Positions 4,482 through 29,730 of a stretch of DNA of 34,436 bases are shown here, in pieces. The stretch lies in the IMG/VR virus record IMGVR_UViG_3300018049_000072, positions 1-34,436 of that record; one strand, 5' to 3'. Positions within the stretch are counted from its first letter, which is position 1. The number at the start of each line of letters is the position of its first letter. Both the position numbers and the translations under genes were made by a program. The stretch is from a virus. The notes under the pieces were generated by a model. It was not told the DNA's origin. It worked only from the letters and a program-made list of their open reading frames with translations, and did no database searches.

Positions 4482-7168
4482 TAACGTCTCCCGCTTTCTC
4501 TAACTTCTAGTTTAGGTGTACCCAAACGCCAACCAACACCTAGTTCGTTAGACGAAACCTTAAACGTGGCACTGCGTCCCCGAAGTCTAAGATTGACGTA
4601 ATCTGTAAAACCTTCTTTACTTTCAGGAAGAACTCCATATCGAATAGGGTCTTTGTAAATATTTGATTGGTTATTAGACTTTTCATACAGCTTCTTGCCA
4701 AGTAAATCTGGCTCAAGTCCGCTTATGTTTGGCGTAGCTACATAAGTTTCAAGTCTAGCCTCCATATATGGCAGCATGTAGTCTTCTATGTAGTCGATTA
4801 TATCCTGTGAAGGTTTGTTAGTAGACCCGTAGTATTTCCAAGCGTGATAGCTTAAAAATTCAAGTCCATCTGAATAATTAACATATCCACTAAAGTTTAT
4901 ATCTCCTAATGATCTGCCGGGCATTGCTTCTGCCGTAACCCACTGCGCTTCCTCTTCGGGGTAACCAACACTAGCCGAAAGTAAAGAAAGAGCTATAACG
5001 GGTGTCCCGTCTGATTGCCGCAAAAACGGATTGTAACTGTTCAGCGCGTCAAAACCGCTACCGGGGTACTGTTCTGTAGACAAGTCTATGTTTACATACG
5101 GCGTTTCTGCGGTGGAGTCTTTGAAGGTGATATCAGGGATAAGCTTTTTAATCATCATAAACTTATCACCTTCGCCAATATCAAACGGGCTAGATTCAAT
5201 GTATGCCGAGATTGGAAGAGCAGGGCTTGTAGAACCATCATCAAACCCTTTCTCATGTTCGTATAAATGCCCGTCTGTACCTGCCGCAATTGGGAAGTTA
5301 AACAAGCCACGGTCCATCCACGCAGTGCGGTTAAGCTTACCTACTGACCAAGTTTGTTCTTGGTAGTTATAGATCACATAGCGATCAACGTCTTCATTTC
5401 GGTACGTCCCCTGACCATCAAAGTTTGCTGAAGGGTAGAACCACCATACCTCAGAATGCTCAGAATTCACACCTGCGATAACCTTTTCCGCTTGGTCAAA
5501 GTTAAAGTCGTTAAAGACGTAGTCTCGTACGGTACAAGGCATCCTTTGTACCGAACCTTGGTAGACATAGAACTCGTTAGCACCCATCCACATCACAACA
5601 TCGTCAACCGCAACGGCAGCGTTTGGTGATTGGATTGTAATCTTTTCGGAAACCGCTGACACACCAAAGATGTACGGAGGTCCAAGGAACTGCATCGTAT
5701 AGAGCGTGGTATCTGTAAAGACTAGAATCTGTTGCTTCGTTTCCACAGCCTGAACAATCTGGGAACCCAGACCCAATCGCAACTCACCCGCAGTAGTGTC
5801 GGTGCTTGTGTCCCAACGACGTAAGTTGTTGCCCGGGCTAACCTCATCTGAAGTAGAGAACCGAATAGTCAACGGGTCTTGGACCCCGGGGTCGAACTCT
5901 GGGTCACAACCGAATGCAATGATGTGTCTATCTCGGTCAGAAACCAACACTTGTTTTGCAATAGTCGGAGCACGGGTCGATCCGTCTAGGTCCGTAAGGG
6001 CCACGGCCCGAGTAGAAACATCCTCGGACGAATCCCAGTAGAAAATGGGTCCGTCACGATAATTAAGTATCAAGTCTTCCCCGAAAGTAGTGTGGTGCCA
6101 CAAACGTAGCGAAGCCTGCGCTTGTGTCTGACCCCAACCCTGAAGACCAAACGCGTTTGCGTTCCAACCGTTAAACAACTGACTGATGTTAGAGCCTACG
6201 TTAATCTGGAAAGTGGCAACTGTTTGTGTGCCTCCTCCTGTTGTTGTCGTTACCGTAGAGTTTAACGGATACAGGTCGTCATCTATCTCGCCATTAACAG
6301 TTATGTCGTTAAGGGATTTATTCGTCTGACGCAGTTGGAAAGTAAACTGGAAGTTAGACAGTTTTGTTATCTGATACTCTTGGTTCACTGCGTCTGCGGT
6401 AGCCGCATCAAACCCGCCTATAGTGGGCTCCACCCCAGTAAAGACAACAAAGTCCCCGGTAATTGCTCCGTGTTCTTTTGTGGTTGTTGCAGTGACTATT
6501 CTGCTTCCGCTTGTAACAGAGAAGGTCAGGTCATCTTGATCATCAGTCGTAATCAAATGTGAAGAACCAAGGGTCGAAGTAGCATCTACACCAGTAACGT
6601 AGAAATTAAATATGTCGTCCGCTGTTCCTATAGGAGACCCAATCTCGGTTGTTACAGCACTGATGTTTATATTCCGTACCACGGCACTGTTATCTGGCAG
6701 CGGAGTGCCGTTAGTATTACTAACAGGAGAACCTGCGGTCCCCGTAGCAGAAACACCTGTAGGCACAATAGGGCCAATGGAAACAAACGTATCACCCAAA
6801 GACGCAGACAGACCGGGAATCGCGGTCCTTGATCCGCTAAAATCTATGCGGATATCTCTAACATCACTTGTGGTAAGCGTCTTTCTAACAGGGGTGATGT
6901 CAAAAAGTGTTGTGCCTCGATCAATATAGTATTTTAGGTTTGTTCCAATTCCGATATAGCGTTCTTTTCTTAGGTCCACCCAAGAAATTAATCCTCGTGC
7001 GCGACCCAAGAATTGTTGGGAGGTGGATCTTTTTAACCATCCGGCAATCTTTTCCGGAAACCCAAACCTAAAGCGAACTTTATCCATATCGTACCAACCA
7101 CCTTCGTTGGACGAACGAGTTAGCTCTCTATTTATTCCCGGCTGAAATTTTAGAGGTATCAAAGACAT
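4481..7168 (-). CDS. P22 gp10-like tail hub / DNA-stabilization protein with a foreign domain inserted
   Basis: The product is 895 residues. ATG at 7168 overlaps the upstream TGA (TGATG), with AGGAG six bases upstream; the in-frame TTG just before it is not used. The N-terminus (PGINRELTRSSNEGGWYDMD, then VRFRFGFPEKIAGW) and the body (LVSDRDRHIIAFGC, QQILVFTDTTLYTMQFLGPP, VWWFYPS, DRYVIYNYQEQTWS) are characteristic of the gp10-like packaged-DNA stabilization family, which plugs the neck below the adaptor ring. The C-terminus (LRLRGRSATFKVSSN...WRLGTPKLEVRESGRR) is also typical. Between them, residues about 711-854 do not belong to the family as I remember it and match a segment of the adaptor protein encoded near 21 kb. 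Confidence 0.8.
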   Translation of the reverse strand: MSLIPLKFQPGINRELTRSSNEGGWYDMDKVRFRFGFPEKIAGWLKRSTSQQFLGRARGLISWVDLRKERYIGIGTNLKYYIDRGTTLFDITPVRKTLTTSDVRDIRIDFSGSRTAIPGLSASLGDTFVSIGPIVPTGVSATGTAGSPVSNTNGTPLPDNSAVVRNINISAVTTEIGSPIGTADDIFNFYVTGVDATSTLGSSHLITTDDQDDLTFSVTSGSRIVTATTTKEHGAITGDFVVFTGVEPTIGGFDAATADAVNQEYQITKLSNFQFTFQLRQTNKSLNDITVNGEIDDDLYPLNSTVTTTTGGGTQTVATFQINVGSNISQLFNGWNANAFGLQGWGQTQAQASLRLWHHTTFGEDLILNYRDGPIFYWDSSEDVSTRAVALTDLDGSTRAPTIAKQVLVSDRDRHIIAFGCDPEFDPGVQDPLTIRFSTSDEVSPGNNLRRWDTSTDTTAGELRLGLGSQIVQAVETKQQILVFTDTTLYTMQFLGPPYIFGVSAVSEKITIQSPNAAVAVDDVVMWMGANEFYVYQGSVQRMPCTVRDYVFNDFNFDQAEKVIAGVNSEHSEVWWFYPSANFDGQGTYRNEDVDRYVIYNYQEQTWSVGKLNRTAWMDRGLFNFPIAAGTDGHLYEHEKGFDDGSTSPALPISAYIESSPFDIGEGDKFMMIKKLIPDITFKDSTAETPYVNIDLSTEQYPGSGFDALNSYNPFLRQSDGTPVIALSLLSASVGYPEEEAQWVTAEAMPGRSLGDINFSGYVNYSDGLEFLSYHAWKYYGSTNKPSQDIIDYIEDYMLPYMEARLETYVATPNISGLEPDLLGKKLYEKSNNQSNIYKDPIRYGVLPESKEGFTDYVNLRLRGRSATFKVSSNELGVGWRLGTPKLEVRESGRR
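4607..5038 (-). other. inserted dockerin/EF-hand-like domain, copy A, within the gp10-like gene
   Basis: These are residues about 711-854 of the gp10-like protein. They contain a 12-residue loop D756-I-N-F-S-G-Y-V-N-Y-S-D767, which fits the dockerin calcium-loop pattern (positions 1, 3, 5, 9 and 12), followed by a helix YIEDYMLPYMEAR (about 794-805). The block separates a normal gp10-like beta region from its normal C-terminal LRLRGR strand. Copy B lies at 20800-21144 in an unrelated gene. The edges are estimated from where family-like sequence stops and resumes. Confidence 0.7.
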
Positions 7169-10100
7169 CAATCACTCCTAACGTTTCTTTTACCGTTGTG
7201 CTGCAGTAAGCCTACTCGGTCTGCGTTTGCATAGGTATACTTGTAAGCTGCCCAGTTTGCATAATCCACCCCATAAGCAAAAATGGGTCGTTTACCGCTT
7301 GGGTCTGTGTCAAAACTGAGAAGACTCACGTTGAACGACTGATTCATATAAGACCAATATAAAGTATCAAAATAGTACGTTTCAGTATCAGGAACTCGTG
7401 TATCAAAAACCACCCGCTCCAAGTTGGGTTTATCTAAATCAAATTGGAACAAAGTTCCTTCACCATAAGTTACATTATAAGGATCTTGCCGTGCCTCGAC
7501 TGAATTGACGAAAAATCTGTTTTTTGTCAGTGACCCCGTATCGTAGTAAAGAGCAGAGGGGGCTTGTATCTTAGAATCTGCAAGCCAAGAAAAATTATCT
7601 GGTTTTTGATAATAACCAAAGTTCCAAGCTTCGATGTGCGTTCCATCACGGTTATACAGGTCAAATCTTGAAACATCCCGAGAACTGATAACAATCTTAT
7701 CATCTAGAACAGGTTGAAAGTTATAAAACCCTGATTCCCAATTTTTATACAAACCCGGCTTGACGGGTTGGGGTGCTGTAAAAGTAACGTGCGGGGAAAC
7801 TGTGGGGTCACTGTATGTAACTTGATTGCCTACAAAGTCGTTGAAATCATTAAATATATAAACGCCTCCAACGGTGTCCCTATCTGGGTAGCTAGTGTAG
7901 GTCTGGACCGCAGAAATGATGATTTGTTTTTGATAAGGCATTCCATAACCCGCTTGCCCTTCTATAGAGACTTGGGTGCCAAAGCTACTTGGCCTTGGAA
8001 CAACGTTTGGAGTGTCTACTTCAAACGTAGATAGGGCATCATAATGGTTGGCTGTAACAGGACCGTATCTGTAGCCTCTAGACAGGGACAACTTGCCTAG
8101 CTTAACGCGTCCTTTCCTATTCCCAAAATTAGGAAACTGCGTGTCTCTACCGCCCGGATAATAAGGTTCCGTATACACAACATAAAGCTCAGGGTCGCGT
8201 TTCCCCCCTACATCATTATAAGTAGAATCAAAAGATTGTGTCGCTAAACACGCGCAATAAATCCCCATGCCTCCATATGTAGGATCAGGGGCATCATCTG
8301 GATCGTGAGAAACTAGTAGCGTCAAACTGTCACTATAAACGTCGTAATAGTAAATGTGTGCCTTAGAACCAAACGCGTAACTTGTATTATCACCCAGAGC
8401 AGAAATGTATAAGATAAGACCCGGATCTCCGAATTTGTCTATGTACTCAATCATTTGTACAGTGCCACCAAACTGAACGGATCCACCTGAAAGCGCAGGG
8501 TCATCAGGAGGTTGAATCTCGTGCAATAAAGCTCCGGTATCTAGATTATATAGATAAGCTCGACCCCTATTCGTGTAGGTGGGAGTTACATAACCACCTT
8601 CGTCAAAATCCCCTTTGCCTATTAGCCCGTAATTCACTCCACCCGTTTTAGCAATCGCTCTTCCTCCACTGGGATAGGCCCATGGGTACTCCTGCGCAGG
8701 TGTGGTGTACGAAGAAGGTTCATCAATAGTACGCAAAATTGTGTTGGTAGTTAAATCGACTAGGGACAATTCTATACTAGAAACATCATAATCCGTCGGA
8801 GATATAAGTGCTAGAGTGCCGTCAGGAGAAATCGCAGTCCTAGCACCGCCCCAACGGGATGTGTTTGGCTGCGGATTGCTTATATATGACTGATAGGAGT
8901 AACCTTCTTTCTGAACTAACGCAACCTCACGCTTTAAATTCTTCTTATATGAATAGGGACCGAACAAACAATTCTTGGCTATCTGCGCTTGGAAAGAGTT
9001 GTTAGTTGCGAAACTAGGTTCGTCTAAGGTGTTAGGAACCCACCTATTCCACGGTCTATGAACAATTTGTGTTATGCCGGGGTCCGACATTCGAACCATC
9101 TTTCTACCATCGTCTATGAGTTTAAAGTTCATAAGGTACATTGTTGCACCAAGGTATGAGAACCTAAAATGGCTTTGGTCATAATCTATATAGTTATAAT
9201 GAGCTTTTGTAATGTTCCATGCATACCCTGTGTTTAAACTATTCGCTCCAAAAACATTTCCGGGGTCGTTCGCTTCTGTATGGAAAAACTGATACGGAAC
9301 CTCAAAGTCAATATCTATCCAGATTTCCTGACCGTGGCCGTCTCCTGCGTTATTAGCACGACGCATTGTTGGATTAACACCAGCTATTCTAACAGGATCA
9401 TATCTAACATATTCATCAGACCCTGTTTTATTTAGTATCAACAGAGCCTTTCTACCTTGGTCGTACCAGTCAAAACCACCAAAACCCCACGCACTGATAT
9501 TACGGGTTTGGTCGTAGTAAGTGGTATTGGGTGCTCCAACAACAGGATCATTTCTTAACCAGTTAACGCTTCTATCCCACTTGTAAATTTCGCTGCCCAG
9601 TTGGCTACCACTGATTAACGAGTATTGAAAATCCATGCGCTTTCGTCTGTACGTACTTGAGTCGTGACGGAAATAGGCACTTTTTACAGTTTTGTCTTCT
9701 AAGGTAAACGGAGTTGTCTGGTAACTACCAGAATTAGAAGGTGTTAGAACCACCTCTTCATAATTAGCCATTCTGTCATAACTGTAGCTTCCACCATCGA
9801 CTACGCTGCCTTTGAAAAACTGTGAAGGTCTAACAGTGTTACTAGCTATTCTACCCTTACCAAATATACCAATTGCACGACCGTGTTCATACGTGTCGTA
9901 TAAAGTGGAATCTGCAGAGGGGTAGTGAGTAGACCGTACCCACTTTAAGGTATGGATAGGAAAGTATTGATTACCAGTGTCAGGACCTAGGTCAATGGGT
10001 TTTTCTATATAGCTGTTCCAATTCGCTGTACTAAGATCGAAGGGTGTACTGCAGGTAACCTGATACAGAGTGGCAGCGTTGTTTTCTCCCTTACACCATA

Positions 10101-12015
10101 TTAACTTAGTTCCATCTGGACTCCATAAAACAGCCGAAGTTTCTATTATTTCACTAACACGACGGTTAAGGGAGTATGTATACGGAGGCAATGTTCCGTT
10201 TACGTTCTCACTACTAAACTCCGTATAATATTTGTCTAAACCGTCTACATCTGGGTCGTTTAGCTTGTTTTTACCCTGCAATACAAGGTCACCGATACTG
10301 TACTGGTTACCATCGTCACCAATTTTTACAGGGGGAGGGGCTTTTATAGAACGTAAATAGTAGTCGTACCCCTTTTGAACATCCACAAACCCAAGAATTA
10401 CTTGAGGAATCTTCTCATGAACCTGTGGCAAATCTCCGTGTTTTAAGTACACCAAGGAAGGAGAGTGGTTATCAATCAGACCTTGAGCACCCTGAAAACC
10501 TTCTCTACTACGGGAGATACCTTTACACAGACGTTCGTCCCACATAGTGGCCCACCGCTTTTCTCGTGCAGCGGTAGTGTTACACCCGTCCAACGTTGCT
10601 GTTCCGCTTCCAGTGTCTAACGTATAGACATGACCTTTAGTCGCCAATTTATCTTGGTCAAATTGTTCTCCTCCAAGGCAAACCGTGATTTTAAGGTTGT
10701 AATTTAGGGCCTCGTAGGCAGGATCTCCTTGCCCGTTTTGGCGAACTTCTTGTTGATACCCTCGGTTTAGTCGTATCTTACCACCCACGGCTCCAATAGG
10801 TCCGTAATTAAGACCAAAGTTTCCGTTGCCTTGCCCAGTCTTCACAACTTCTCGCTGTGTTAAACTACCCCAATCAAAAGCGACTTCTGTGTCTAAACGA
10901 TAAACACACCACTCATTTGCGTGGTCGGGATCGCCGTCTACCCCACTTTCAAGTGCGAACAAATAAACGTTATACCCATTCTCTGCCCACTCGAAGGATG
11001 CAACGGAACTAGCTTGGTAAGTTCTTCCTGTAACAGCCGAAAGATCGAAATGAGTTTTACTCGAACCTAATGTGGTGCCTACACTGGCAAGTCTAGTGTA
11101 TGTTCTATCTAACCCTCCTGCAGGAACAGTAAATGATTCCCAACCTGTATCAAATCGAGTAACTGTAGGCCCATGTTGTACATCAATGTGAGCAGGAACA
11201 CTGTTAACCGTGTTCGTAACCCCCCATCGTACAAACTGAACGTCCGTTACGCGTCTATCTACACCCGAGCCGTTATAGTACCTAAAGTACTCAGGGTCTG
11301 TGTCCGTAACATCCAGTAGAAGTGTACTGCCACCAAAAGTAGCAGGAGAAGAAGGAGTGTTGGTCACAAGGTAGTTTGTGGCAATCTCTTCCGCACGGTT
11401 GCTTCCGGGGGTTCCTGCATATGTGTCTGTAGGAGCTAAGAAATTAAACCCAAGAGTATCCGCGTCGTAAATAGACTGATTATCAGAGTTTTTCACATCT
11501 GCTAAAAACGGAACGCCGTACACCATAACTCGCATAGTAGATACACCCGGGTCTGTGTCAGGATCTGTACCAGTGGTGTAGTTTGCGGCAGATACCAGAT
11601 ACCCTTGTTGGCGATGCCATCCTACGTTTGTGTTATCAAAATAACCACCGTTGTGGTTGTTGGTGTTTGGAGTCCCCGGAGTGTCCCAAGAGGAGTAGTT
11701 ACTGTACTGAATTAAAGGTGCTTTTGTAGCTACCATATCAAACACAAAACCTTGTCTGGCGTGTTTGTAGTAATCATAGCTCATACGAGGCACGTTTGCA
11801 TCGTCATCAATATCAGCGGGAATAGCTACTTTGTCTACGTTATACCCATAATATGGCGCGTAGTTGTTTATTGACCCTGTCAGCGTAGACTCATCAATAT
11901 TAAATTTTCTTTCGTCTACAAAATCAGAACCATAAGGAGTAGTCGCCGTTTCATTCTGAATCGGCGTGTTAAACAACTCAGTATTAGAAGCAAACCGTTT
12001 AGCTAAATTAGGCAT
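7168..12015 (-). CDS. giant beta-propeller-like tail/receptor-binding protein
   Basis: The product is 1615 residues. ATG at 12015 has AAGG about 7 bases upstream; the TTG just before it is rejected. It is rich in Tyr, Asp, Gly and Thr with few Lys, and has no signal peptide. Residues 640-680 hold SPDGTKLIWCKGENNAATLY followed by STPFDLSTANW, a propeller-blade pattern. Residues about 1130-1300 hold GRAYLYNLDTGALLHEI and QFGGTV, close to FG-GAP or PQQ-type blades. The long middle part is not recognised. Lying between the fibre gene and the gp10-like hub, it is probably an outward-facing tail spike or receptor-binding protein. Glycan binding or degradation is possible, but no catalytic site is recognised. 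Confidence 0.6.
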   Translation of the reverse strand: MPNLAKRFASNTELFNTPIQNETATTPYGSDFVDERKFNIDESTLTGSINNYAPYYGYNVDKVAIPADIDDDANVPRMSYDYYKHARQGFVFDMVATKAPLIQYSNYSSWDTPGTPNTNNHNGGYFDNTNVGWHRQQGYLVSAANYTTGTDPDTDPGVSTMRVMVYGVPFLADVKNSDNQSIYDADTLGFNFLAPTDTYAGTPGSNRAEEIATNYLVTNTPSSPATFGGSTLLLDVTDTDPEYFRYYNGSGVDRRVTDVQFVRWGVTNTVNSVPAHIDVQHGPTVTRFDTGWESFTVPAGGLDRTYTRLASVGTTLGSSKTHFDLSAVTGRTYQASSVASFEWAENGYNVYLFALESGVDGDPDHANEWCVYRLDTEVAFDWGSLTQREVVKTGQGNGNFGLNYGPIGAVGGKIRLNRGYQQEVRQNGQGDPAYEALNYNLKITVCLGGEQFDQDKLATKGHVYTLDTGSGTATLDGCNTTAAREKRWATMWDERLCKGISRSREGFQGAQGLIDNHSPSLVYLKHGDLPQVHEKIPQVILGFVDVQKGYDYYLRSIKAPPPVKIGDDGNQYSIGDLVLQGKNKLNDPDVDGLDKYYTEFSSENVNGTLPPYTYSLNRRVSEIIETSAVLWSPDGTKLIWCKGENNAATLYQVTCSTPFDLSTANWNSYIEKPIDLGPDTGNQYFPIHTLKWVRSTHYPSADSTLYDTYEHGRAIGIFGKGRIASNTVRPSQFFKGSVVDGGSYSYDRMANYEEVVLTPSNSGSYQTTPFTLEDKTVKSAYFRHDSSTYRRKRMDFQYSLISGSQLGSEIYKWDRSVNWLRNDPVVGAPNTTYYDQTRNISAWGFGGFDWYDQGRKALLILNKTGSDEYVRYDPVRIAGVNPTMRRANNAGDGHGQEIWIDIDFEVPYQFFHTEANDPGNVFGANSLNTGYAWNITKAHYNYIDYDQSHFRFSYLGATMYLMNFKLIDDGRKMVRMSDPGITQIVHRPWNRWVPNTLDEPSFATNNSFQAQIAKNCLFGPYSYKKNLKREVALVQKEGYSYQSYISNPQPNTSRWGGARTAISPDGTLALISPTDYDVSSIELSLVDLTTNTILRTIDEPSSYTTPAQEYPWAYPSGGRAIAKTGGVNYGLIGKGDFDEGGYVTPTYTNRGRAYLYNLDTGALLHEIQPPDDPALSGGSVQFGGTVQMIEYIDKFGDPGLILYISALGDNTSYAFGSKAHIYYYDVYSDSLTLLVSHDPDDAPDPTYGGMGIYCACLATQSFDSTYNDVGGKRDPELYVVYTEPYYPGGRDTQFPNFGNRKGRVKLGKLSLSRGYRYGPVTANHYDALSTFEVDTPNVVPRPSSFGTQVSIEGQAGYGMPYQKQIIISAVQTYTSYPDRDTVGGVYIFNDFNDFVGNQVTYSDPTVSPHVTFTAPQPVKPGLYKNWESGFYNFQPVLDDKIVISSRDVSRFDLYNRDGTHIEAWNFGYYQKPDNFSWLADSKIQAPSALYYDTGSLTKNRFFVNSVEARQDPYNVTYGEGTLFQFDLDKPNLERVVFDTRVPDTETYYFDTLYWSYMNQSFNVSLLSFDTDPSGKRPIFAYGVDYANWAAYKYTYANADRVGLLQHNGKRNVRSD

Positions 12016-12026
12016 CAAAGAACCTT

Positions 12027-20122: not shown

Positions 20123-20398
20123 TTAAAGTCTCCTTATATACTCAGCAAGTTCTGGGTAACCCGCTTCTATTATGGCATTATACACAGTTACGCGGTCATT
20201 GCGAACTGATCTTTTCATGAAGTGTGTTAACATAGATACGAGGTTTTTTCTATACGCTCGTGCCTGATCCTTAACTTCCTCTGTTGCTTCGTCCGAAATG
20301 TATAGGATCTTGTCTGCACACTGCTCTGCTAACTCTTCAGGAGTTAGGCCCCTATTATCTGTTGTGATAATCTTAAATGGGGGAGCTTCCATGTTCAT
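20123..20398 (-). CDS. conserved small protein of the neck/tail module
   Basis: The product is 91 residues from an ATG at 20398 that overlaps the stop of the upstream adaptor gene (ATGA). A second ATG two codons later is equally possible because neither has a strong ribosome site. The sequence starts with EAPPFKIITTDNRGLTPEELAE and ends VYNAIIEAGYPELAEYIRRL. I recall this pair of motifs from a small helical family in pelagic phages, always near the adaptor genes. It is mostly helical, soluble and has no Cys-rich or catalytic motif. Assembly factor or small virion protein are both possible. Confidence 0.6.
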   Translation of the reverse strand: MNMEAPPFKIITTDNRGLTPEELAEQCADKILYISDEATEEVKDQARAYRKNLVSMLTHFMKRSVRNDRVTVYNAIIEAGYPELAEYIRRL

Positions 20399-21372
20399 TG
20401 TTTCTGTCTCACTACCTTACCAACACGATACTCATCGGTGGTTTGTTTTGCCTCACCTAGCATCTTAATACCCATCAACGACTCTTGGAACCGTGACTGG
20501 TACATCTGCATAATATCAGGCTCTTCTTTCATGTATACACCCGCCTCGATCAAGGATCCATAGAGCATAGCCATCTCAGCGTTCTTACTGAGCCATGTTG
20601 TGCCGCTCTCGGCTCCGGCAGTTAAACTGATCGGACGATAGAAATAACTTAACTGACAACGGAAACTTAGACGAGGTTTGGGCGAAAGAATGAAGTTCTC
20701 TTCGTTAAACTGAGCGTAGTATTTAGGATCGCCAGTAGTATCCTCGTTTCCCTGATACTCCCGTAAAAAACTTATATCTTTAAAATCAAGATACGCTATG
20801 TCTGAATCAGGTTTTGTCGCATCATAAAAAGCTGAGTATATCTCAGGTCTAGCAGCCATATATGGCAGCATGTAATCTTCTATATATGTAATTTCATCGT
20901 CCGTAAGGCTGCTTGTTATTCCCAACACATAGTTGTTCATTTTTGTTGAGTCTGCCGCTACTACTTGAGCGTTTCCACCCACAGACCCTAACGCAATACC
21001 GGGAAACGCCTGTGTATTCTCAAATAGCTCTACAAAATCTATCGGAGTTGTCACACCCCCAGATGTCTGAAAAATAGCTTCTGCTAAGTTTGAACGGTTC
21101 TGTTCATTCCAACTAGCACCTGTCGGATATTTTGGAGCCGTTGTATAGCTAAGTGAAAACGGAGCCAAAAAGTCAGATGGAACCTCTAAGTATTCGTTCT
21201 TGCCAATTACTTGAGCAGTAGAGTTTTGACGAAACAAATCTAACTGCACGTTTTTTAGTATACGCTCTTCTGCCTGACGAATGAACAAAGGGATGTTACG
21301 AACAAACGAGGGCTCGTTGTTTTCTGTAAAATCCTGAATCGCGGTTTTTAGTTCTGCGTACGTAAAACTCAT
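20395..21372 (-). CDS. phage neck adaptor-type protein with an inserted domain
   Basis: The product is 325 residues from an ATG at 21372 that overlaps the upstream stop (ATGA). Residues 1-75 (MSFTYAELKTAIQDFTENNE, then FIRQAEERILKNVQLDLFRQ) and 192-325 (YLDFKDISFLREY, GDPKYYAQFNEENFILSPKP, then a helical C-terminus) belong to an adaptor-like family frequent in marine podoviruses and myoviruses. Normally the PSDFLAPFSL segment runs almost directly into YLxxKDxxFxREY, as I remember it. Here about 115 residues (77-191) separate them and match the insert in the gp10-like hub. It probably forms part of the neck between portal and tail. Confidence 0.7.
   Translation of the reverse strand: MSFTYAELKTAIQDFTENNEPSFVRNIPLFIRQAEERILKNVQLDLFRQNSTAQVIGKNEYLEVPSDFLAPFSLSYTTAPKYPTGASWNEQNRSNLAEAIFQTSGGVTTPIDFVELFENTQAFPGIALGSVGGNAQVVAADSTKMNNYVLGITSSLTDDEITYIEDYMLPYMAARPEIYSAFYDATKPDSDIAYLDFKDISFLREYQGNEDTTGDPKYYAQFNEENFILSPKPRLSFRCQLSYFYRPISLTAGAESGTTWLSKNAEMAMLYGSLIEAGVYMKEEPDIMQMYQSRFQESLMGIKMLGEAKQTTDEYRVGKVVRQKQ
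20800..21144 (-). other. inserted dockerin/EF-hand-like domain, copy B, within the adaptor gene
   Basis: These are residues 77-191 of the adaptor. The helix at 163-175 (YIEDYMLPYMAAR) is nearly identical to copy A (YIEDYMLPYMEAR), with a 19-nt identical DNA core at 20856-20874 versus 4762-4780. The loop S130-V-G-G-N-A-Q-V-V-A-A-D141 aligns with the calcium-type loop of copy A but has lost most acidic ligands. Upstream parts also align weakly (TTPIDFVELFEN with TPVIALSLLSAS; AFPGIALG with AMPGRSLG). Confidence 0.7.
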
Positions 21373-21671
21373 GATGCTAATACCCCTACAGTTCCAACTT
21401 GGCCTACTGATCGAGGCATTGCGTTGTTAGGTAACTCTACCAAAGGAACTCCTACGTATACCTGAATTGGTTCCACACGATCAGGTCGAGCGTCTCGTAA
21501 CGCCTGTGGATCTGGTCCTACACGAGGAGGAAATAATTGTGGGTGCTTTGGTTCATACTCATCAGGACCAACCATAGCCCCGGTCCACTCTTTTTTCATA
21601 TCGCGTAGACGATATCGAAAACCCGAGCGGTCTGAAATGCCCCATGCGTCTTTGCCACTTGCGTATGCCAT
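21369..21671 (-). CDS. conserved neck-region structural protein (AISDRSGF...EPKHPQL family)
   Basis: The product is 100 residues. ATG at 21671 has GAGGG five bases upstream and a TAATG overlap with the upstream stop. The sequence WGISDRSGFRYRLRDMKKEW and EYEPKHPQL, followed by PDPQALRDARPDRVEP, is a small family I remember from T4-like cyanophages and pelagic phages. The C-terminus is a beta/Pro segment with GTVGVL. It lies exactly between two adaptor proteins, so head-to-tail connection is the best guess. No catalytic residues are evident. Confidence 0.65.
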   Translation of the reverse strand: MAYASGKDAWGISDRSGFRYRLRDMKKEWTGAMVGPDEYEPKHPQLFPPRVGPDPQALRDARPDRVEPIQVYVGVPLVELPNNAMPRSVGQVGTVGVLAS

Positions 21672-22336
21672 TAGACCCTCAAATACGATATGCTAGGTTG
21701 CAATTTAAGTGGAGTCCGGCCCTCGTCTTCGTCTGCCGCACGTTGGAACTCTTCCTCATAAACAGATTTCAAAATCTGAATACGATCAGGGGCTCTTTTC
21801 ATAGCCATGTAGTAAGCTAGCCCTGCCACCATGCAAGGATAAAAACGGAAAGGCATGTCGGTAGTGTTTGTTAGTGTGTCCGCATCTTGAATGCGCTGAA
21901 CATAGTAGTACACCAACTGATCGGTAGAGTTTTCCGGCACCGCCCAGATATTAATTACAGGCGCAACCTGACGGTCAAAATAGAACTGACTTGGACGACC
22001 CTGTGTTGTTTTGTCAGGAAGCGTCATGTAATCGCCTCGACTGATTCGGTCTAGTTCATAGTCAGTTCCGTTTCTACGTAGAACAACTTCTAATAAATCA
22101 ACCACATCCGCAGTTAGCGTTTCTTGCGCCTGTCCCGCAGTTAAGGTAAGCACACCCTGCTTCACGGTCCACAAGTTTAAACCCCGGTTGGCCCAGTCTG
22201 CAAACATAAGATTTAATGATCGACGCGCTGTTTTAGCGTCGTAACCTGTGCGAACCTCCAAGCCACAACGCTCGTAGGCTTCTTCAATTACCTCGGCAAC
22301 GTCGAGGTTAAAGTCTCTTGAACCAGATGTCGTCAT
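21671..22336 (-). CDS. P22 gp4-like head-tail adaptor protein
   Basis: The product is 221 residues from an ATG at 22336 overlapping the upstream TGA (ATGA). The N-terminal helices (VIEEAYERCG, TARRSLNLMFADWANRG) followed by LWTVKQGVLTLTAGQ, then RPSQFYFDRQVAPVINIWAVP, and the long C-terminal helix (RFYPCMVAGLAYYMAMKRAP...YEEEFQRAADEDEGR) are typical of the gp4-like tail accessory family. These form the dodecameric ring below the portal in P22-type phages. It is slightly longer than P22 gp4 (166 residues). It is followed by the gp10-like hub further along, which fits the same neck complex. Confidence 0.75.
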   Translation of the reverse strand: MTTSGSRDFNLDVAEVIEEAYERCGLEVRTGYDAKTARRSLNLMFADWANRGLNLWTVKQGVLTLTAGQAQETLTADVVDLLEVVLRRNGTDYELDRISRGDYMTLPDKTTQGRPSQFYFDRQVAPVINIWAVPENSTDQLVYYYVQRIQDADTLTNTTDMPFRFYPCMVAGLAYYMAMKRAPDRIQILKSVYEEEFQRAADEDEGRTPLKLQPSISYLRV

Positions 22337-29386: not shown

Positions 29387-29730
29387 TAGTAGCACTTCCC
29401 ACGTTTAGGGTTCACACGAACGTCACCGCCACGGTAGAAACCTTCAACGCCTCGACCTTTTAAAATGTCTGCACGACTAACCTCTCCATCACCATTTAGG
29501 TCAGGAAACACTTTACCACCATCTTTAAATCGTGCTATCTCGCTGCGAGGTTTTCGTTTCATTGTATTATTACGACCTTTCAAAGTATTGTACTTTGATG
29601 TCGGATTTTTCTTAGGGTCAGACATGGCTTCAGAAAGCGCGTCCTCTATAGCCTTTTCTGTATCTTTTGAGATCCCAGAAAAAACCTTTCCCCCCTCTTT
29701 GTATCCTTTTTTAGAACCGCAACCTGCCAT
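29386..29730 (-). CDS. small EF-hand/dockerin-loop protein
   Basis: The product is 114 residues. ATG at 29730 has GGAGG upstream. It begins MAGCGSKKGYKEGGKVFSG and repeats the KxGGKVF motif at about residues 69-75 (KDGGKVFPDL). The loop D77-L-N-G-D-G-E-V-S-R-A-D88 is a textbook EF-hand/dockerin calcium loop followed by ILKGRG. The C-terminus is basic (VRVNPKRGKCY). Calcium binding is likely from the loop, but the partner is unknown. It sits just after the endolysin gene, so either a virion or lysis-linked role is possible. Confidence 0.6.
   Translation of the reverse strand: MAGCGSKKGYKEGGKVFSGISKDTEKAIEDALSEAMSDPKKNPTSKYNTLKGRNNTMKRKPRSEIARFKDGGKVFPDLNGDGEVSRADILKGRGVEGFYRGGDVRVNPKRGKCY

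Follow-up and report, generated by a model that had tools for sequence, protein, structure and literature searches.

Two tail proteins of an uncultured virus, which are otherwise unrelated, contain a similar internal segment. The locus raises the question of whether this segment is a mobile DNA element inserted in frame into both genes or a protein domain that has come to reside in both products, and what it might do in the virion. The DNA analysed, termed the window below, is the whole of a 34,436-base IMG/VR virus record, from a marine, apparently short-tailed (podovirus-like) phage. The initial annotation proposed a homologous dockerin-like domain in the two proteins and suggested an in-frame mobile coding module as one possible source. 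The observation has been confirmed; the interpretation is partly supported.

Two tail proteins and their inserts

The first host protein is a podovirus nozzle, or tail hub. Its residues 4-711 match phrog_3287 (E 7e-66), and its profile matches the sequences of solved nozzle/hub chains, namely 9nwi_Y (E 2e-26) and the Vibrio phage VP1 nozzle 8zkk_O (E 8e-14). The second is an SU10-type adaptor by both profile and fold; its predicted structure aligns with the SU10 adaptor 7z47 with Z 15.8 and rmsd 3.9 over 198 residues. The model, which is good outside the insert, matches the adaptors of Pa223, SU10, cyanophage A4 and VP1 with Z 15-16, and Sf6 chains align over only about 100 residues. Adaptor genes (L003-L008) and a hub gene (L040) that are 100% identical to those of the window are present on separate IMG/VR contigs.

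A second protein of the SU10 adaptor family is encoded at 21674-22336, adjoining the adaptor gene at 20398-21372, and the same pair is found in many relatives. Either of the two may be the fibre-bearing ring or the ring on the portal. Family phrog_28581 matches hub residues 216-280 (about 6332-6526) as well as a small protein at 21372-21671, upstream of the adaptor, and this region is perhaps a second domain common to tail proteins. The small protein encoded at 29389-29730 has an EF-hand-like loop, FPDLNGDGEVSRADILKGRG, and relatives in L192, L074 and L081.

Alignment with homologues sets the edges of both inserts (Table 1). In other hubs the same loop has 10-42 amino acids. Adaptor homologues are about 215 amino acids long with a short hairpin at the insert site, versus 325 amino acids in the window. 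An insert of at least 25 amino acids is absent in 130 of 139 adaptors, and no module was found in hubs outside this phage's own records; the homologues thus do not always carry the segments, as they would if these belonged to an ancestral fold. The proposal of a dockerin-like internal domain common to two unrelated tail proteins, with no counterpart in most homologues, therefore stands.

Table 1. Coordinates of the host genes, inserts and module features in the window
Feature	Positions	Strand	Basis or remark
Host protein 1, nozzle/tail hub (phrog_3287)	4484..7171	-	896 aa
Hub insert, 150 aa, residues 705-854	4610..5059	-	gap in aligned homologues
Dockerin-like module, hub copy, residues 730-812	4736..4984	-	module HMMs
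Calcium-type F-hand loop DINFSGYVNYSD, hub residues 757-768	4868..4903	-	aligned to loops of all other copies
Second helix DIIDYIEDYMLPYMEAR instead of second F-hand, hub copy	4754..4804	-	conserved YIxxxMxxYM; helix predicted with low confidence
Host protein 2, SU10-type tail adaptor	20398..21372	-	325 aa; PF24175 E 1e-16
Adaptor insert, 112 aa, residues 78-189	20806..21141	-	in the fibre-dock beta domain, flanked by strands 68-77 and 192-197
Dockerin-like module, adaptor copy, residues 102-181	20830..21069	-	module HMMs, alignment
Degenerate loop SVGGNAQVVAAD, adaptor copy	20950..20985	-	calcium ligands largely lost, by alignment
Candidate partner, 1616-aa ORF adjoining the hub	7171..12018	-	position, inference only

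The module is about 85 amino acids long, and only two copies are found in this genome. The adaptor copy begins with QTSGGVTTP, which resembles the RTSGNLSTP edge of copies in other phages. In a BLASTP comparison of the pair, 27 of 65 residues are identical (E 6e-9). The best block, DIIDYIEDYMLPYMEARLETYVA against DEITYIEDYMLPYMAARPEIYSA, has 17 of 23 identical residues when recounted from the printed sequence, and the alignment of the flanking segments AMPGRSLG and AFPGIALG, also noted initially, was reproduced. The overall identity of the two copies is 36%, and this low value is all that would speak for a chance resemblance between two unrelated inserts. That reading is refuted. Apart from the pair E value, an HMM built from the foreign copies alone places the window hub at the top (E 1.4e-9) and the window adaptor next (3.6e-6), with the following window ORF at 0.4; since it ranks exactly these two proteins on top, the resemblance goes beyond chance.

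Relation to dockerins and to palindromic elements

The hub loop was originally said to fit the dockerin calcium loop. It does, and the dockerin type I pattern D-x-[ND]-x-[DNS]-G-x-x-[NST]-x-x-D is kept in 10 of the 11 module copies that were compared. Within the window, however, the fit is confined to the hub copy, as the equivalent stretch of the adaptor copy has lost the pattern. Dockerins are the best PDB sequence matches (E 1.5e-6) of a profile made from three L252 copies and the window hub copy, and dockerins or dockerin-bearing cellulosome proteins make up the top 13 of its 22 PDB matches. The likeness to type I dockerins of cellulosomes (PF00404) lies in the first half of the module, an LGD[IVL][ND]xxGxVNxxD loop followed by a helix. 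Dockerins have two tandem F-hand repeats, whereas all 11 module copies have a single F-hand, with a conserved YIxxxMxxYM helix in place of the second. The Pfam Dockerin_1 model gives no match to the hub copy and only 13-16 bits for foreign copies, against a cut-off of 22.9. The module also differs in being located inside virion proteins, and no cohesin family was recognised among the 17 window proteins scanned against Pfam, which does not prove that a cohesin is absent. Judged by its sequence, the module is half-dockerin-like, and a dockerin proper is excluded by the single F-hand and the sub-cut-off Pfam score. Structure prediction is of low confidence here, with pLDDT 42 for the module alone and 37-60 within the adaptor; the second part of both copies is predicted, likewise with low confidence, to form helices. 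A structure comparison with the adaptor model, in which the insert is barely modelled, listed adaptors and no dockerin.

Rickettsia palindromic elements are in-frame coding modules found in unrelated genes, with palindromic ends and near-identical copies. The phage module is similar in that it lies in frame in unrelated genes, but it differs in having no shared palindromic ends, an old divergence and two copies only. A recent insertion of a comparable mobile element into both genes would be favoured by two features of the DNA. One is the 19-nt identity between 4762-4780 and 20856-20874, which is present as first described but carries less weight than was implied, as it mostly follows a conserved peptide. 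Codons are shared at 13 of 25 identical residues, where 9.3 are expected (P 0.09), and recent transfer as the source of the match was rejected on the codon usage of these residues. Around the match, a single local run is more identical than expected (P 0.007), perhaps by chance or through gene conversion at this spot. The other feature is a perfect 12-nt inverted repeat, 4613-4624/4977-4988, which flanks the hub module plus its tail and is seen in 11 of 4000 shuffles. One more inverted repeat of this size occurs elsewhere in the genome. The window adaptor copy has no inverted repeat of at least 9 nt with arms more than 100 bases apart, and around eight foreign copies there is none of at least 10 nt; the repeat at the hub module is probably a coincidence. 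Over the module, the hub and adaptor DNA sequences are 55% identical and synonymous sites are near saturation. Because of this divergence, and because comparable repeats are missing at the other copies, a recently mobile DNA element is very improbable and largely refuted. What remains of the original suggestion is mobility at the level of the domain, across proteins.

Spread of the module among tail proteins

Sequence searches with the two window copies alone detected the module in this phage's own records only. A DNA pattern of the dockerin F-hand, run on viral contigs, yielded 49 loci, L252, L264, L268 and L282 among them, and the HMM search for relatives in other phages, as advised at the outset, revealed L296, L297 and L298 as further members in uncultured phages. 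Loci L252, L264, L268, L282 and L296 encode SU10-type adaptors with a related module at the same hairpin as in the window adaptor; in the first four it lies directly before a conserved FVEFKD (YLDFKD in the window). L252 has, in addition, a second, fibre-adjacent protein with two more copies. The final scan added a fibre-adjacent protein of L297 with two copies, a divergent adaptor of L298 (PF24175 E 2e-10, phrog_10775 E 9e-66) with the module in a different loop, and a small neck protein of L296, phrog_28581, with the module as a C-terminal extension. Being found in a hub, in SU10-type adaptors of two lineages and the divergent L298 adaptor, in a phrog_28581 protein and in a fibre-adjacent protein, the module is a promiscuous accessory virion domain. 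It resembles in this respect the Ig-like domains of tailed phages, which are accessory domains spread across unrelated virion proteins. According to a survey as cited in PMC7602432, 25% of tailed phages have Ig-like domains, which are located in tail fibres and in baseplate, tail, head and decoration proteins. The module differs in being mostly helical and F-hand-based instead of a beta-sandwich, and its members so far come from uncultured phages only.

Several other sequences were set apart from this family. The adaptor of L154 (3122-4120), first thought to be a carrier, has about 104 amino acids inserted at the same hairpin, but these form a beta-rich domain unrelated to the module, and in other phages an unrelated beta-rich insert occupies another adaptor loop; adaptor loops thus appear to accept domains of different kinds. 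L257/L289 and L281, whose dockerin-like F-hands are looser, were left out; the proteins concerned are a baseplate wedge-like one and a tail fibre that bears an S74 chaperone. No credible match was obtained by tblastn of the phage collection with four module variants and the looser L257 segment, and a weak match there to the S-CAM7 tail sheath was read as chance. A PF00404 scan of 50 viral records gave just small EF-like stretches below the cut-off. Scans of genome contigs gave none at first and later a single match in a Clostridia MAG, 35 residues long, which covers the generic F-hand.

In a tree of 11 module copies, based on about 100 columns, the window hub and window adaptor copies are sisters (UFBoot 97), and the AU test rejects (p 0.005) a tree in which the window adaptor copy is forced to join those of the other adaptors. 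As these two copies pair and descent with the adaptor is rejected, the module appears to change host proteins. When the shared YIEDYMLPYM block is removed, the signal is weaker (UFBoot 86, AU p 0.057), and for this reason gene conversion between the window copies may have contributed. When 143 adaptor cores are placed in one tree, adaptors of the L252 type cluster with L223, L297 and L151, all of which have no insert, and the common ancestor of the L252-type and window adaptors spans 66 of the 143 tips, nearly all of them likewise with no insert. This distribution argues for separate gains at the same hairpin. With few copies and about 100 columns, the simplest reading of the trees would be separate gains at one hairpin together with movement of the module between proteins. 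That the segments form a domain family, that they are inserts and that they have been placed repeatedly is considered very probable.

A possible role at the fibre dock

In the predicted model, the adaptor insert lies between two strands of a beta domain (Table 1). This beta domain is the fibre dock in the T7 and SU10 papers, and P22/Sf6 adaptors do not have it; the site of the adaptor module, as modelled, is the hairpin of the fibre-dock domain. In SU10, the adaptor provides a fibre dock and the nozzle has a platform that contacts the adaptor (PMC9509320). In T7, the fibre is seated between an adaptor dock and a nozzle dock. From domain order, the hub module near the C-terminus is probably situated at the adaptor-facing platform. 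The core of the window adaptor is of the same family as the SU10, T7 and KP32 adaptors, with the insert in the dock domain, but in those adaptors and in the T7 and SU10 nozzles the fibres are bound by loops of the docks themselves. No report of a dockerin-like module in adaptors or nozzles was found in the open-licence papers searched.

It is hypothesized that the module is a promiscuous accessory virion domain that is swapped among tail proteins and that docks or braces at the groove between adaptor and nozzle (probability roughly 0.5). The two segments are copies of one domain of about 85 amino acids, consisting of a dockerin-type F-hand (loop plus helix) and then the YIxxxMxxYM helix. Gain into tolerant loops, for instance by illegitimate recombination, would swap it between tail proteins over evolutionary time. 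The module would fold independently and would bind calcium where the ligands are kept. It might then dock or brace around the groove that separates the fibre dock of the adaptor from the nozzle platform, the place at which T7-like phages seat their fibres, and there either retain a fibre or spike or join the adaptor to the hub. For the docking role itself the chances appear even. The window adaptor copy, whose calcium ligands are largely lost, counts against this explanation. So does the second SU10-adaptor-family protein of the genome, since either of the two may form the fibre-bearing ring.

The module could instead be generic surface decoration that binds glycans of the host surface or adds bulk or stability, with no role specific to fibres, as many phage Ig-like domains do. 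This is a possible but less probable alternative. It would account for a module that turns up in several virion proteins unrelated to one another, a small neck protein and fibre-adjacent proteins among them, and copies outside fibre-dock sites (the small L296 protein and the tandem copies of L252/L297) fit it as well; this adaptor domain also has beta-rich insertions of a different kind in relatives, and Ig-like domains, as presented in PMC7602432, offer a precedent. The adaptor copies, however, occupy loops of the fibre dock, protein-protein binding is known for dockerin F-hands and no glycan-binding family was recognised. A direct pairing of the two modules, forming a clamp across the adaptor-hub joint and holding no fibre, is doubtful. 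The window copies are mutual closest relatives with YIEDYMLPYM unchanged in both and locally identical codons, and the hub platform and adaptor adjoin in T7 and SU10; yet 6 hub copies would have to match 12 adaptor copies, and in other phages the carriers of the module are the adaptor and proteins other than the hub.

If the module docks at the groove as hypothesized, a possible partner is the 1616-aa protein encoded next to the hub. At the position of its ORF, relatives encode fibre-like proteins of varied sequence, about 30 of which have an N-terminal region in common, and searches of IMG/VR and the phage collection gave no relatives of this protein beyond the records of the phage itself. 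A more speculative and rather unlikely extension is that in marine podovirus-like phages the half-dockerin module is an exchangeable connector in the facing adaptor and nozzle parts and in neck and fibre proteins, and that it recruits a fibre or spike specific to the lineage, for which the 1616-aa protein is a candidate in this phage. If true, such phages could take on a new receptor-binding protein with their core docks unchanged. As regards its spread, this helical calcium-loop module parallels the Ig-like domains of phage tails: it moves among unrelated ring proteins and has entered fibre-dock loops repeatedly. The module provides a lead on the settings other than cellulosomes in which dockerin-like half-domains operate, and a testable one on how short-tailed phages may change what hangs on their tails.
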